Shown here in pieces: positions 6,075 through 59,890 of a stretch of DNA of 64,000 nt (position 1 is the first letter of the stretch; each line of letters starts with the position of its first letter). Both the position numbers and the translations under genes were made by a program. The DNA is from Aquirufa beregesia (GTDB taxonomy: Bacteria > Bacteroidota > Bacteroidia > Cytophagales > Spirosomataceae): NCBI RefSeq assembly GCF_011090385.1, contig NZ_SEWW01000003.1, forward strand, positions 62,001 through 126,000, written 5' to 3'. The notes under the pieces are model-generated. The model saw only the letters and a list, made by a program, of their open reading frames with translations. It had not been told where the DNA came from and did no database searches.

Positions 6075-7118
6075 ATGAGCGAAACTTTGTTTTTTATTCT
6101 GTTTTCAGTGGGAGTCTTGGCGGTGATGTTGGTGGATTTAGGTGTTTTTAAGACTGGACCACAGTCAGAAGTAACTTTTCGAGAGGCGGGTTTTTGGAGT
6201 GGGGCTTGGGTAATTTTAGCACTATTATTTTATCTATTTTTGAGGTTCAATGGAGGGATGGTTCATGGCATTCATGATGTGCCAAGTTTGCAAGTTGTTC
6301 AAGAATTATATGCTAAACAGATCCAATTAGGAACGGGTACTTATTTAGATCAACTAGCTGTATTTCAGGAAAATATGTCCTTGGAGTTTATTACAGGTTA
6401 TTTGGTGGAATACTCTTTGTCGGCTGATAATGTCTTTGTCTTTATTTTGATTTTCAATTCATTCGGGGTTCAAAAGCGTTACTACAAAAAGATTTTAGTT
6501 TGGGGTGTGTTGGGGGCTATTGTGTTGCGACTTATCTTCATCTTTTTGGGAGCAGCACTATTACAGAAGTTCGATTGGATTATTTATCTGTTTGGAGCAT
6601 TTTTGGTATATACGGGAATAAGCATCATTGTTAAAAAAGATAGTGAGGAGGAAATGGTTCCTGGACATCATCCTGTTGTGAAGATTTTATCTAAATATTT
6701 TAATGTGTACAAAAGGAATGTCATTGGACGCTTTTTTGTGCGTATGAAAACGGGCAAATTGTACATTACGCCCATTTTTGTCGTAGTAGTAGTTATTGCT
6801 TTTACGGATATTTTATTTGCGGTGGATTCAATTCCAGCCATATTTTCCATCTCTAAGGATCCATACATTGTATTCTTTTCCAACGTATTTGCGGTCATGG
6901 GATTACGGTCCTTATTTTTCTTCTTGTCGAACTTAATGGGTCTCTTTCGTTTTTTACCGATGGGATTAGGAGTGCTTTTGAGTTTTGTTGGAGTCAAGAT
7001 GTTAGCTCATCATTATTTGGAGCAAATAGGCTTTGGGACTTTAGCTTCACTGGGTGTCATTATTGGGATTTTGACCGTGAGCATTGTTTTAAGTATGCTT
7101 TTCCCAGAGAAAAAATAA
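6075..7118 (+). CDS. TerC/Alx-family integral membrane protein
   Basis: A 347-residue polytopic membrane protein of the TerC family. Members are linked to tellurite resistance and to Mn2+ export during secretion of metalloproteins. About nine hydrophobic segments are visible. The family signature is seen in EYSLSADNVFVF (residues about 114-125) and again in FTDILFAVDSIPAIF, which carry the conserved acidic residues thought to bind the metal. The ATG start is 56 nt after the divergent glycosyltransferase start. The gene is single and ends at a palindromic repeat that may be its terminator. Substrate in this organism is inferred only from the family. Confidence 0.9.
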   Translation: MSETLFFILFSVGVLAVMLVDLGVFKTGPQSEVTFREAGFWSGAWVILALLFYLFLRFNGGMVHGIHDVPSLQVVQELYAKQIQLGTGTYLDQLAVFQENMSLEFITGYLVEYSLSADNVFVFILIFNSFGVQKRYYKKILVWGVLGAIVLRLIFIFLGAALLQKFDWIIYLFGAFLVYTGISIIVKKDSEEEMVPGHHPVVKILSKYFNVYKRNVIGRFFVRMKTGKLYITPIFVVVVVIAFTDILFAVDSIPAIFSISKDPYIVFFSNVFAVMGLRSLFFFLSNLMGLFRFLPMGLGVLLSFVGVKMLAHHYLEQIGFGTLASLGVIIGILTVSIVLSMLFPEKK

Positions 7119-7175
7119 TCAGTTTTTTATCAGGTAGTTGAAGGTGGAATTGGGGGGAAATAGTGAAATTTGCCC

Positions 7176-7208
7176 AACGCTGGCAAGGTTTTAAACCTTG
7201 ACAGCGTT
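7176..7208. repeat. Palindromic intergenic repeat (AACCTTGACAGCG family), copy 1
   Basis: Arms AACGCTGGCAAGGTT and AACCTTGACAGCGTT flank TTA and differ from a perfect inverted repeat at one position. The site lies between convergent genes and has T-rich sequence on its right, so it can act as a terminator. The core AACCTTGACAGCG recurs at 26468, again between convergent genes. Confidence 0.75.
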
Positions 7209-7221
7209 AGGTTTTTCCCTT

Positions 7222-8109
7222 TTACCGATGCCATTCTAAAGTCAATTTTCGATATTGTAATGGTGGCATTTTCATCCATTGTTTGAACTGCTTGTTGAAG
7301 TGAGACAGATTTCCGAATCCACTCTCAAAACAAATCTCAATCATGGGTTTGGAGCTACTTCTAAGCAATTGACAGGCATGTTTAATCCTGAATTCGGTAA
7401 CTAATTCCACAAAGGTCTTATGGGTAACTTTTTTGAAATAGCGGCAAAAAGCCGTTTCAGTCATGTTGGCTAAATGGGCCACTTCATCTAAATGTACTTC
7501 ATGCGTATAATTGGCAATGACATAGGCATATACTCGATTGATTCTTTCTAAATCCACCGTAGATAATGTATAACTGCTTTCACTAGATTCAATGGGGTGA
7601 AGGTCAGCTGCTTGAGTACTTAAGGTATGTAGGATTTGTAAAAAATTCAATAAACGAGGAAAGGGGGCTAAACCTGTTAATAATAACATCTCCCTAGCAA
7701 TTTTGTCTTGAGTGCTTCCTTGAATTGAAAATCCCAAATTGGCTCTCTCTAGCAAAGATTTAATGGCGGAACTTTCTTTTTTATTCATAAAAGCCTCTCC
7801 CAAGAAATCTGTAGAAAAATGAATTACTAAAGCCTGAGCGGTATTTTCCTCCAAGTCTTCTGTTAGCCAATCTTTCCGGTGATTTTGCCAGCAATGCGGC
7901 AAATTTGATCCTAAAAGAACTAAATCTCCTGAGCTAAAGTCGCTTATTTGGTTGCCAATAAACCGTTTCCCTTCTCCTGAAATAATCAAGGTAAGTTCCA
8001 ATTCAGGATGGAAATGATATGGGGCATCAAAACGAGCTTGTTTTACTTCCTTGATTTCGAAGGACAAAGCTTCGCTTCCTTTTGCCAAATGCTCCAAACT
8101 AGCTTTCAT
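7222..8109 (-). CDS. AraC-family transcriptional regulator with cupin sensor domain
   Basis: A 295-residue regulator. The N-terminal cupin (residues about 15-120) contains FDAPYHFHPELELTLI, the usual small-molecule pocket. The C-terminal pair of helix-turn-helix motifs (about 190-290) ends with the AraC signature around MIEICFESGFGNLSHFNKQFK. It is transcribed divergently from the phytanoyl-CoA dioxygenase-like gene 127 bp away. This arrangement suggests it controls that oxygenase and perhaps itself. An imperfect inverted repeat at 8145-8171 in the shared control region is a candidate binding site. The inducer is not known; a sugar or another substrate of the neighbouring oxygenase is possible. 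Confidence 0.9.
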   Translation of the reverse strand: MKASLEHLAKGSEALSFEIKEVKQARFDAPYHFHPELELTLIISGEGKRFIGNQISDFSSGDLVLLGSNLPHCWQNHRKDWLTEDLEENTAQALVIHFSTDFLGEAFMNKKESSAIKSLLERANLGFSIQGSTQDKIAREMLLLTGLAPFPRLLNFLQILHTLSTQAADLHPIESSESSYTLSTVDLERINRVYAYVIANYTHEVHLDEVAHLANMTETAFCRYFKKVTHKTFVELVTEFRIKHACQLLRSSSKPMIEICFESGFGNLSHFNKQFKQWMKMPPLQYRKLTLEWHR

Positions 8110-56743: not shown

Positions 56744-56818
56744 GGCGGTTGTAGCTCACTCGGTTAGAGCACTGGTTTGTGGTACCAGGGGTAGTGGGTT
56801 CGAATCCCATCATCCGCC
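56744..56818 (+). tRNA. tRNA-His (GTG)
   Basis: The cloverleaf has anticodon stem CTGGT/ACCAG with loop TTGTGGT (anticodon GTG), T arm GTGGG-TTCGAAT-CCCAT and D arm AGCTCACTCGGTTAGAGC. The extra G at -1 pairs with the discriminator C73, the hallmark of tRNA-His. CCA is not fully encoded. The acceptor stem has one mismatch, T5 with T68. Flanking promoter and terminator are present, so it is transcribed alone. Confidence 0.95.
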
Positions 56819-56820
56819 CA

Positions 56821-56853
56821 AAAAGTCTCAGTATTCTTACTGGGACTTTTTTT
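56821..56853 (+). terminator. Terminator of tRNA-His
   Basis: AGTCTCAGTA-TTCT-TACTGGGACT forms a 10-bp stem with one G-T pair, followed by seven T's. Confidence 0.88.
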
Positions 56854-56883
56854 GTTTATAGCCCTTTCCTATCCATAATTTAT

Positions 56884-56896
56884 AATTCATCATTTA
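56884..56896 (+). repeat. 13-bp flanking repeat, left copy
   Basis: AATTCATCATTTA here recurs directly at 58439-58451, so the two copies bracket the tandem array. It may be a target-site-like duplication, or common A+T-rich sequence. Confidence 0.35.
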
Positions 56897-56915
56897 TAAT
56901 TTACAATTTTCTTAT

Positions 56916-57432
56916 GGCTTCAATCTTTGACGCCATTACACATGGCCTATGCTCAGGGTCAAATATCCGCCTGCCGTTTCGCTCAAGCTCCGTTCCAATC
57001 TTTCGTTGGGATTAACCTAGAAATGTAGAATGTCGAATTTTCTTAAGAAAGAGAACCCCGTCGTCCAGCTCCAGCGAAAGGTGATGAGCGCAGCGGTAGA
57101 CGGGGTTTTGACCTCAGCATAGGCGATGTGCGTCGGCGTCAAAAATATAGGCGATAGCGGAGAGAATTACGGTTCCGCAAAGCGGAATTCGCCTTTGCTG
57201 GACGACAAAAAAAGAAGTTTTTTTGTTTCTTTTTTTTCAAAAAAGAAAATCCTAGTGAAATGATGAAACAATAAAGGTTTGGCTTATTTTGTTTCCTTTT
57301 ATCAATAACATTGTTGGAATAATACTTTTCATGGTATTTCTTTTTTTATAAAAAAGAAACAAAAAAAACAGAAGAAATACGGTTAATCCAAGACGAATTC
57401 CGCTTTGCGGAACCGATTGTCACTTTGCTTAC
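56916..57432 (+). repeat. Array unit 1 (517 bp)
   Basis: First unit of a non-coding tandem array. It starts at GGCTT-C-AATCTTTGACGCC and runs to the base before the same word recurs at 57433. It contains a forward partial copy of a structured element, an inverted copy (57062-57190), an A/T-rich spacer with homopolymer tracts, and then a forward copy beginning at 57395. No coding potential was seen in either strand: only short frames. Confidence 0.9.
57062..57190 (-). repeat. Inverted copy of the structured element, unit 1
   Basis: Reverse-complemented, this segment aligns with the forward element at 57395-57523. The 21 bases at 57170-57190 match those at 57395-57415 exactly on the opposite strand. 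The TTTGACGCC...GTCAAA stretch (about 38 bp) aligns with few differences. It contains hairpin TTCCGC-AAA-GCGGAA. Confidence 0.85.
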
Positions 57433-57951
57433 GGCTTTAATCTTTGACGCCATCACACATGGCCTATGCTCAGGGTCAAATATCCGCCTGCCGCTTCGCT
57501 CAAGCTCCGTTCCAATCTTTCGTGGGATTAACCTAGAAATGAAGAATGTCGAATCTTCTTAAGAAAGAGAACCCCGTCGTCCAGCTCCAGCGAAATGTGA
57601 TGAACGCAGCGGTAGACGAGGTTTTGACCTCAGCATGGGTCGATGTGCGTTGGCGTCAAAAATATAGGCGATAGCGGAGAGAATCACGGTTCCGCGAAGC
57701 GGAATTCGCCTTTGCTGGACGACAAAAAAAGAAGTTTTTTTGTTTCTTTTTTTTCAAAAAAAGAAAATCCTAGTGAAATGATGAAACAATAAAGGTTTGG
57801 CTTATTTTGTTTCCTTTTATCAGTAACATTGTTGGAATAGTACTTTTCATGGTATTTCTTTTTTTATAAAAAAAGAAACAAAAAAAACGGAAGGAATACG
57901 GTTAATCCAAGACGAATTCCGCTTTGCGGAACCGATTGTCACTTCGCTTAC
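57433..57951 (+). repeat. Array unit 2 (519 bp)
   Basis: Second full unit, nearly identical to unit 1 along its length, with an inverted element at 57578-57707 and the next forward element starting at 57914. Differences are scattered single bases, for example loop GAA in place of AAA in the 57687-57707 hairpin. Confidence 0.9.
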
Positions 57952-58273
57952 GGCTTTAATCTTTGACGCCATCACACATGGCCTATGCTCAGGGTCAAAT
58001 ATCCGCCTGCCGCTTCGCTCAAGCTTCGTTCCAATCTTTCGTGGGATTAACCTAGAAATGAAGAATGTCGAATTTTCTTAAGAAAGAAAATCCTAGTGAA
58101 ATGATGAAACAATAAAGGTTTGGCTTATTTTGTTTCCTTTTATCAGTAACATTGTTGGAATAATACTTTTCATGGTATTTCTTTTTTTATAAAAAAGAAA
58201 CAAAAAAAACGGAAGGAGTACGGTTAATCCAAGACGAATTCCGCTCTGCGGAACCGATTGTCACTCCGCTTAC
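57952..58273 (+). repeat. Array unit 3, truncated (322 bp)
   Basis: This unit lacks about 200 bp, including the whole inverted element, relative to unit 2. The junction is at AAGAAA (58080-58085). In unit 2 the same word occurs at both ends of the missing segment (57561 and 57761), so a deletion by recombination between short direct repeats explains it. Confidence 0.88.
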
Positions 58274-58394
58274 GGCTTTAATCTTTGACGCTTATGCTCA
58301 TGGCCTATGCTCAGGGTCAAAATATCCGCCTGCCGCTTCGCTCAAGCTCCGTTCCAATCTTTCGTTGGGATTAACCTAGAAATGAAGAATGTAG
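58274..58394 (+). repeat. Array unit 4, partial
   Basis: The last copy covers the TTTGACGC...TTAACCTAGAAATGAAGAATG part and then stops. Its forward element starts at 58236 in the previous spacer and has hairpin loop TCT. Beyond 58394 the sequence is unrelated, A+T-rich and runs into the esterase gene. Confidence 0.85.
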
Positions 58395-58438
58395 AAATGG
58401 ACAAATTAGTTAACCCCATTCAGGCATTCACAATTTGC

Positions 58439-58451
58439 AATTCATCATTTA
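58439..58451 (+). repeat. 13-bp flanking repeat, right copy
   Basis: AATTCATCATTTA, a direct repeat of 56884-56896, lies just outside the array and 4 nt from the esterase stop codon. Confidence 0.35.
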
Positions 58452-58454
58452 CCA

Positions 58455-59810
58455 TTATTTAAGGTATCTCGAAGCAAACTCTAAGAAGTTCGGCCAATTT
58501 GGGCCCGTCACATGGCCCTTGTCATGCATTCGGAATGCGATATTGCCTTGAGTTTTAGCTTCATTGATGAGTGGCGCACTGTCTGAAACCAAGCCTTTTT
58601 TGCCGAGTAATTCATACACAGAACTGGCTTCTTTGCCTGCTACATACATACCATAAGGATCAGCCCAACTGTCGCCATTTCCTCCCACACCAATATACAT
58701 GGGTCTTGGTGCGCAGAGGGCAATTAATTCATGAGCATCAATGGGTAAGTCGTTCCATTGCAATGGCCCCGCATATTTTAGAAAATTTCCAGCCATCCAA
58801 TGGTATTCATTTTTAGCAGCCACGTTCTCAATTAATTCCCCATAATTTCTTCGGTATAATTTCAGTCCGCCCGCTCCAGAGGAACAGATATAGCCAATCG
58901 CAAAGCGTGTATCAAATGCCATGGCCACGGCAGCCGCTTTTCCGTAGCGTGAATGTCCTGTAATTCCTACTTGTGTATATTTGATTTGTGGCAATGTTTC
59001 CAAATAGTCCAATACCTTACTAGCTCCCCAAGCCCAAGCTCTTAAAGAACCCCAGTCGTCCGCTTTTCTGTATTCTCCCCGATTCATCAATCCAATGATT
59101 CCTGATTTCAAACCAGCCCCATGATCAGCTTGGACGCTCGTTGGGTTTAATTGAATAAAGGCCCAGCCTTTGGCTATCACTTGTTCTGTCCAGAGTATTT
59201 CATTAGCTGGTGCAGGAGGTCGATTCATTCCTGGAGGAAAAAACCATGCCAATTCCATCATAGCGGGCATGGCCTTTTTGATGTCTTTTCTAAATCCAAT
59301 GGTCACTTCCATTTGGACGGATACGGAAGGGAATCGTTTATTGTCGACAGTCCCAATCAATTTTTGGACTTCAACCGGAAAACCGGCCATGGTTTTATTT
59401 TCTGTTGAGATAATTTTCCAGGAAATAGGCGGAATATTATCGGGGATACGGCCATAAATTTCCCTTTCAAAATCCTCTACAACCTCCGGTTTACGGTGGT
59501 AGTTCCAGCTTCTTTTGGAATCCACCATACGGCCATTTTTTAACTGTAGTACCGCCGGTATAGTAGGGAAAATGGTGGCTTTTGATTCATCATAATTAGC
59601 GGCATTAGGTGCTTTGGGGTTACTTCCATTGACACCCGGTCGGATGCTTTGGATGTTTAGTTGCTGCAACATTTGCTCGTAATCAGCCTGAGTTTTTCTA
59701 TTTCGATCGGCTAACATACTATCTTGTTCAGCCGTTCTAGCCACTTGAGCCCAACTGCTCCAGGAAAGTAGCAGAGAAAAAAGGAGGGAAAAGGATAAAT
59801 TGCGTTTCAT
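58455..59810 (-). CDS. CE15-like esterase (glucuronoyl-esterase-type)
   Basis: A 451-residue secreted alpha/beta hydrolase like carbohydrate esterase family 15, whose members cut the ester between lignin and glucuronic acid of xylan. A signal peptide (MKRNLSFSLLFSLLLSWSSWAQ) is present; I start at ATG 59810, with ATG 59825 also possible. The serine is in VGITGHSRYGKAA (GHSRxGK, as in bacterial CE15), and the histidine is in HDKGHVTGPNW. The acidic member should be in LIALCAPRPMYI. It is a solitary gene without SusCD or other polysaccharide genes. Related acetyl-xylan-type esterases cannot be excluded. Confidence 0.82.
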   Translation of the reverse strand: MKRNLSFSLLFSLLLSWSSWAQVARTAEQDSMLADRNRKTQADYEQMLQQLNIQSIRPGVNGSNPKAPNAANYDESKATIFPTIPAVLQLKNGRMVDSKRSWNYHRKPEVVEDFEREIYGRIPDNIPPISWKIISTENKTMAGFPVEVQKLIGTVDNKRFPSVSVQMEVTIGFRKDIKKAMPAMMELAWFFPPGMNRPPAPANEILWTEQVIAKGWAFIQLNPTSVQADHGAGLKSGIIGLMNRGEYRKADDWGSLRAWAWGASKVLDYLETLPQIKYTQVGITGHSRYGKAAAVAMAFDTRFAIGYICSSGAGGLKLYRRNYGELIENVAAKNEYHWMAGNFLKYAGPLQWNDLPIDAHELIALCAPRPMYIGVGGNGDSWADPYGMYVAGKEASSVYELLGKKGLVSDSAPLINEAKTQGNIAFRMHDKGHVTGPNWPNFLEFASRYLK

Positions 59811-59890
59811 CGTTATATGATTCATTCAACGATATTAATCAATTATTTCCTTTATTTATCCATGAAGCAGGATAGGCTAGAAAAAGTAAA

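Follow-up and report, generated by a model that had tools for sequence, protein, structure and literature searches.

The tandem repeat array beside tRNA-His in Aquirufa beregesia is, with a probability that we place at about 0.7, one cluster, amplified locally, of an interspersed mosaic repeat that is non-coding, non-autonomous and restricted to the genus. The best-supported kind is a new family resembling BIME, ERIC and BOX elements, which works like a BIME and which, by the tests made, does not belong to the RAYT-linked REP/BIMEs; the best explanation requires no dedicated host function. The family would add to the Bacteroidota a well-delimited interspersed mosaic repeat whose fold is backed by compensatory changes. 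In the open-licence literature, we found no description of such repeats and none for Aquirufa.

Organization and fold of the array

The array was confirmed as real, between two genes, in the 64,000-nucleotide stretch of DNA that was analyzed as a whole (the window; Table 1). Its position had been given correctly in a preliminary description, and we obtained the same unit starts (56916, 57433, 57952 and 58274) and spacings (517, 519 and 322). Outside one block, identity is 96.7% between units 1 and 2, 98.1% between units 2 and 3 and 96.3% between units 1 and 3, and the partial fourth unit is 92.6–94.2% identical to the others. Unit 3 is short, as one 196-bp block comprising module B and its tail is absent, with AAAGA microhomology at the two edges; slippage across a hairpin would be expected to leave such a difference, as would a gain in the neighboring units. 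Tandem Repeats Finder, run with periods limited to 500, reported a 323-bp step as the sole period. As had been claimed, the array is tandem and non-coding and contains no transposase; protein coding was rejected, as there is no ORF of 80 aa or more within it.

Table 1. Features of the array and its surroundings (window positions)
Feature	Position	Strand	Remarks
tRNA-His, left neighbor	56745..56819	+	
Terminator-like hairpin just after tRNA-His	56820-56851		
AT-rich tract abutting left end of array	56870..56908	.	
Whole repeat cluster	56904..58396	.	units 517, 519, 322 bp and partial fourth
Module A copy 1	56904..57017	-	3′ part missing (profile positions 1-114 of 153); nhmmer
Module B copy 1	57060..57206	+	GTCGTCCAGC ... 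GCTGGACGAC
T-run and AT hairpin tail of B copy 1	57207..57249	+	
Tail-to-tail linker, B to next A	57250..57332	.	limits approximate
T-run and AT hairpin tail of A copy 2	57333..57380	-	limits approximate
Module A copy 2	57381..57534	-	complete; GGTTAATCC ... GGATTAACC
196-bp block of unit 2 (B and tail)	57564..57759	.	absent from unit 3; AAAGA at both edges
Module B copy 2	57576..57723	+	
Module A copy 3	57901..58052	-	complete
Module A copy 4	58223..58376	-	complete
AT-rich tracts abutting right end of array	58384..58456	.	
Right neighbor, protein matching Pfam GCE_fung (glucuronyl esterase)	58455..59825	-	convergent with sodA and tRNA-His

The unit, given earlier as about 518 bp, is not a featureless block but a mosaic: its 517 bp are made up of linkers and two modules, each of ~150 nt, that are homologous and oppositely oriented. 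Module A, on the minus strand, is closed by GGTTAATCC/GGATTAACC and module B, on the plus strand, by GTCGTCCAGC/GCTGGACGAC, and 3′ of each, on the strand of the module itself, a T-run and an AT hairpin form a T-rich tail of ~45 nt. A T-run also lies 3′ of two divergent copies, at loci L066 and L132. In all 16 clusters that have both types, A is opposite to B. Partial forms occur as well, among them head-only pieces of ~50 nt, tail-only pieces and modules in which the middle hairpin is swapped for AT-rich sequence. The mean column identity of module A is 89%, unpaired stretches included.

Two further observations concern sequences of this kind. Head-only A fragments of ~47 nt recur about every 128 bp at L146 (2275-2577) and L151 (124-426) of genome G033, which is another amplification mode of the family. 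AT-rich near-heptad tracts of the ATTCTACATTCTACATT and AATTTATAATTTACAATT types, which abut the array on both sides (Table 1), fill the same gap in relatives that lack modules there (L057-L060) and abut many module ends, forming a separate low-complexity intergenic repeat class.

Folded as DNA, the 517-nt unit reaches -106.2 kcal/mol against a shuffle mean of -58.6 (sd 4.8, n = 100; z -9.8). Modules A and B share a common fold of 40 pairs in seven helices. Initial consensus folds, computed by RNAalifold from alignments without filtering, were poor; the structure was then drawn from single-sequence folds and visible compensations, and was thus chosen with the same sequences in view. In the 41 A modules used (of 45), 96.0% of the cells are paired under this fold, and cells changed on both sides number 49, against 19.7 in shuffled and 2-12 in slid controls; there is no excess in the number of pairs with a both-side change (4 versus 4.5 shuffled) or in further pair types (16 versus 16.1). 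When B and divergent copies are included (101 distinct rows), 25 of the 40 pairs have both-side changes and 358 such cells compare with 115.7 shuffled and at most 87 slid, in an alignment that was fitted to the covariance model and so leans to structure. The compensations are visible in individual helices. One has the arms GATTG/CAATC, GATGG/ACATC, GATTT/AAATC, GTGAT/ATCAC and GGGAT/ATCCC across copies, and another TTCCGC/GCGGAA, TTCTGC/GCAGAA and TTTCGC/GCGAAA. The closing helix is swapped wholesale between A and B; the A form given above is replaced by CGTCCAGCC/GGCTGGACG in one B (L070) and by ATTTAATC/GATTAAAT in the copy of genome G225.

The module strand carries 58 G-U versus 16 A-C cells, at 20 versus 7 pair positions, whereas shuffles give 136 versus 91 (counted in the 91 best of 104 rows, 88 of them distinct, with one constant G-U pair excluded). 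The closing helix of A has the opposite bias, 6 A-C to 1 G-U. Folding energy is better on the module strand than on its complement in four of four modules, and the z-score, which is modest throughout (-1.3 to -3.0), favors the module strand in three, the exception being L081 (-1.93 versus -2.00). Together, the G-U excess and the strand energies suggest that one strand folds, as RNA or as single-stranded DNA. Since related copies are not independent, such one-strand folding may be taken as a lead and not as proof.

Known structured RNAs were rejected by Rfam, which matched only TPP and tRNA in the whole window, no family for the repeats at L068, L069 and L071, and, at a permissive threshold, nothing in the array better than E 0.096, far under the gathering score. 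The preliminary description had raised the possibility of a known rRNA/tRNA-linked spacer family, for which Rfam likewise offers no match. The TPP riboswitch lies at 2580-2675 of the window.

Distribution within the genome and among relatives

The statement that the unit resembles nothing else holds for the window, where all blastn matches of unit 1 lie inside 56913-58396 and all six covariance-model matches within 56875-58380. It fails for the genome: one array unit as blast query gave 128 matches, which, when fetched with their flanks and scanned with a profile, resolved into 28 clusters with 52 near-full modules. The tRNA-His neighborhood noted earlier is incidental. ARAGORN found a tRNA in 3 of the 25 other loci fetched from this genome, ~160 bp, 400 bp and 1.1 kb from modules, so linkage to tRNA was rejected, and there was no rRNA match in the window or at L068, L069 and L071. 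In all, the interpretation first offered for the array is partly supported.

Modules favor gaps between convergent genes. With ORFs called mechanically and three of the 28 clusters, at contig ends, outside the classification, 16 of 25 clusters were classified as convergent, five as divergent and four as tandem, against 13 of 55 convergent among the gaps of the window (Fisher p = 0.0009). The difference persists when the two clusters of L085 are counted once (15/24, p = 0.0018) and when this corrected count is compared with window gaps of at least 60 bp (6/26, p = 0.009). Modules overlap just four called ORFs, of 83-126 codons (L066, L080, L082 and L083), and the one tested against Pfam, at L066, gave no match. 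Recurrent cargo in the flanks was rejected: 10 flanking proteins chosen from nine clusters are mutually unrelated, one of them having an integrase core.

Several contigs end inside or beside repeats of the family. One of them, C12 (L089, 3471 bp), starts within a module and ends near an IS3-like end, which indicates that the assembly breaks at these repeats; assemblies of these genomes should be read with the warning that they break, and may miscount, at such arrays. In C12, rmuC is bracketed by inverted A modules, its placement being ordinary.

In five relatives, the orthologous gap lacks the array. The gap is module-free at L058, L060 and L061, and a ~50-nt head relic lies in those of L059 (by profile) and L057 (by eye, the profile being silent). 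The same five gap sequences recur at the corresponding loci (L110-L114) of the other five genomes that bear repeats, those of L112 and L113 being identical to L057 and L060, so that these five relatives carry the family elsewhere and not at the tRNA-His gap. Local amplification is therefore later than the split from them. The earlier claim of recent amplification is partly right: in addition to the absence of the array from these relatives, identity within it (96-98% for units 1-3) exceeds that to the closest other locus in this genome among matches longer than 350 nt (L070, 93.5%). The neighboring protein has relatives of 77-90% identity in one Cytophagaceae MAG and in four Aquirufa species with names; on the left of the array, tRNA-His sits downstream of sodA. 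For at least five other sites of this genome, one flank or both can be matched to a place in a relative that also bears repeats, the number of modules being different. In a sample weighted to this genome, 37 of 55 A modules and 26 of 36 B modules have their nearest neighbor within their own genome. Given occupied, empty and relic sites among close relatives, spread and local amplification can be traced species by species.

The covariance model found the family in 6 of 37 Aquirufa genomes (14 matches in one of them, G005) and, among 222 genomes of the taxonomic family, in one other genus, with one copy in the sister-genus genome G225. Samples of 194 genomes of the order and 395 of the phylum gave no further carriers; the four genome sets overlap, and only 7-48 candidates per genome were scored in these scans, so weak copies may be missed. 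Blastn against related genomes, which had been proposed as a check, gave weak matches in five genomes of other genera (G037, G041, G043, G044 and G056; 1-4 each, E 7e-4 to 2e-6), which the covariance model did not confirm and in whose loci the profile found no module. The HTH gene beside the single G225 copy was rejected as a partner, there being none beside a similar copy in L066. A phage or plasmid origin was also rejected: blastn against 50,697 phage and 72,556 plasmid records found no match, nor did a search for the exact 21-nt core in viral contigs.

Mobilization and alternative readings

End motifs that we take to be IS3-like (a presumptive name read from the sequences, like GNAT and biotin synthase below; the integrase core was found by a family search) offer one likely route by which modules disperse. 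Counted at up to 3 mismatches, with placement relative to modules read manually, 21 such ends occur in this genome: 13 within ~600 bp of modules, 5 equally near module fragments, 2 at contig ends and 1 elsewhere. Three AB pairs (L068, L069 and L071), 97-99% identical over 793-895 bp, are bracketed by these ends in differing flanks, which indicates that AB pairs have been copied as passengers. It would go further to propose that a non-autonomous IS3-family MITE has the AB pair as its interior and that all clusters are decayed copies of this MITE. Such a proposal would account for the 18 of 21 ends beside modules or module fragments, the three near-identical bracketed copies and a further element in the L080 cluster, which has a similar end and encodes an integrase-core protein. 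We nonetheless consider it improbable, as IS3-like ends are absent at 13 of the 26 loci of this genome (the window cluster included; L087 holds a fragment only) and at 36 of 38 module-bearing loci of relatives, some of which overlap; with only 2 of 38 positive, such ends do not explain the family's general spread. No target-site duplication was seen at L068, L069 or L071, and the L080 element, which may have a target duplication of 3-4 bp, carries no module and interrupts a linker, so that arrays are also IS targets. A second mobile source, a RAYT-type Y1 transposase driving a REP/BIME system, would fit the BIME-like alternation of two unit types and the presence of a strong Y1_Tnp (73-90 bits) in all but one of the 6 Aquirufa genomes with repeats, against nothing above 25 bits in the 31 congeners without them. 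This co-occurrence may instead reflect shared ancestry or genome completeness, and RAYT as mobilizer is largely refuted by where the gene lies. In all five genomes it is found between the same presumed biotin-synthase-like and GNAT-like genes, with a different palindrome, GCCATGGATTTAAATCCATGGC, at its flanks (1-8 copies per locus), which at up to 2 mismatches is absent from the window and from 25 repeat loci of this genome; blast found no module within 1.5 kb of the gene, and no RAYT-like gene was found in G005, for all its matches to the model. We therefore regard this source as very improbable.

The main open alternative to a mosaic repeat is a functional folded RNA, which we think unlikely: the modules would be a strand-specific structured non-coding RNA (or single-stranded DNA) whose fold is selected, and the array a multi-copy RNA locus or 3′-end element. 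The compensating helix arms, the preponderance of G-U over A-C and the lower energy of the module strand are consistent with such a role, as are the T-runs after A, B and the two divergent copies. The modest z-scores, with the module strand ahead in only three of four modules, and the opposite bias of the A closing helix argue against it. The 30 nt upstream of modules are, by eye, not conserved, and scans of the array found no sigma-70-like site (Bacteroidota promoters differ from that consensus) and no terminator-like site inside it by a simple scan, the two that were found both lying before the array. Presence in only 6 of 37 congeners and the lack of an Rfam match also weigh against an RNA. 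A variant that we likewise hold to be doubtful is a genus-restricted, proliferating structured RNA or single-stranded DNA, in which fold would be selected over sequence, two paralogous modules would have exchanged their closing helices and facing pairs would be kept, possibly with movement in trans by a reader of the strand-specific fold. If the strand-specific fold is indeed that of an RNA, an unannotated, expanding RNA family would be at hand. As the source of the array's existence, an assembly artefact is unlikely, since the array lies inside a 337-kb contig with the neighbors expected from relatives, scattered differences separate its units, and five other assemblies also contain A/B pairs or chains. 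We give the artefact almost no credence, even though the 3.23 Mb assembly is in 72 contigs, several of which end in or beside repeats; the copy number in the living strain is putatively, and not provenly, that of the assembly.

The mosaic-repeat reading also has observations against it. No insertion event was caught, and the three bracketed copies lack target-site duplications. Some clusters are kept in place across species, as a functional element would be, and the conservation of module A, which extends to unpaired stretches, exceeds the need of a decaying parasite. If the array is nevertheless a cluster of mosaic repeats, modules would only seldom enter new gaps, in some cases at least as passengers in non-autonomous IS3-like elements. 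Convergent gaps may tolerate them because nothing is interrupted there. After direct and inverted copies have come to lie close to each other, hairpin-aided replication slippage and unequal crossing-over could expand, shrink and homogenize the array.

Two side observations concern genes met during this work. At L099:1839-2554 of genome G033, a 94-bp unit with GCCATGGATTTAAATCCATGGC is repeated 7.6 times beside the RAYT-like Y1 transposase gene, and GCCATGGATTTAAATCCATGGC is found at the RAYT-like gene in four other Aquirufa genomes too, making this a RAYT/REP pair of the Bacteroidota in which the REPs form a tandem array. In this genome, a 622-codon frame with a reverse-transcriptase domain lies between two repeat clusters at L081 (~6744-7478; contig C2:65743-66477). 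Reverse transcriptase was rejected as a mobilizer, RVT_1 being found in 1 of 6 repeat-bearing Aquirufa genomes.

Comparison with known repeat systems

REPs and BIMEs are described as intergenic, mostly in gaps downstream of genes or between convergent ones, with close units that face in opposite directions and, in BIMEs, alternate regularly (PMC3733652, PMC2817692). The Aquirufa modules are likewise intergenic, mostly in convergent gaps and paired in opposite orientation. IS elements are reported to target REPs (PMC1525189), to which the integrase-core element in the L080 linker offers a parallel. CGTC-tagged REPs are described from five phyla, including Bacteroidetes, and as lacking a dedicated transposase (PMC3733652, PMC2817692). 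Such REPs have an unpaired CGTC at one end. In Aquirufa, B begins with ...CCCGTCGTCCAGC, in which an edge-lying CGTC belongs in part to the closing helix, and A begins with GGTTAATCC, which has none. A REP is also a palindromic unit of 20-40 bp, in contrast to the ~150 nt, 40 pairs and seven helices of the Aquirufa module, and RAYT genes are flanked by their own REPs, unlike the RAYT-like gene of Aquirufa with its other palindrome.

BOX elements consist of boxA-boxB-boxC on one strand, and ERIC has the form of an imperfect, ~127-bp palindrome. Compared by description, the two homologous facing modules of Aquirufa differ from the single-strand order of BOX, and they differ from ERIC and other MITEs in forming tandem A-B chains and in that neither target duplication nor parent element was shown. 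IS-derived MITEs have the terminal inverted repeats of a parent IS; in Aquirufa, IS3-like ends flank three AB pairs and lie near others, and are absent at the window cluster. Pneumococcal BOX, RUP and SPRITE elements are described as small, highly structured interspersed repeats that hardly occur outside one species group, transpose slowly, are interpreted as parasitic and are in some cases transcribed (PMC3049150), and ERIC and other MITEs as short intergenic repeats without coding capacity (PMC3733652). A minisatellite inside a MITE is described in Porphyromonas gingivalis (PMC4596501), a species of the same phylum; by description it resembles the Aquirufa array in that a repeat array is tied to non-coding mobile DNA. 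Like repeats of the ERIC/BOX-like kind, the Aquirufa family is non-coding, dispersed, structured, intergenic and clade-restricted.
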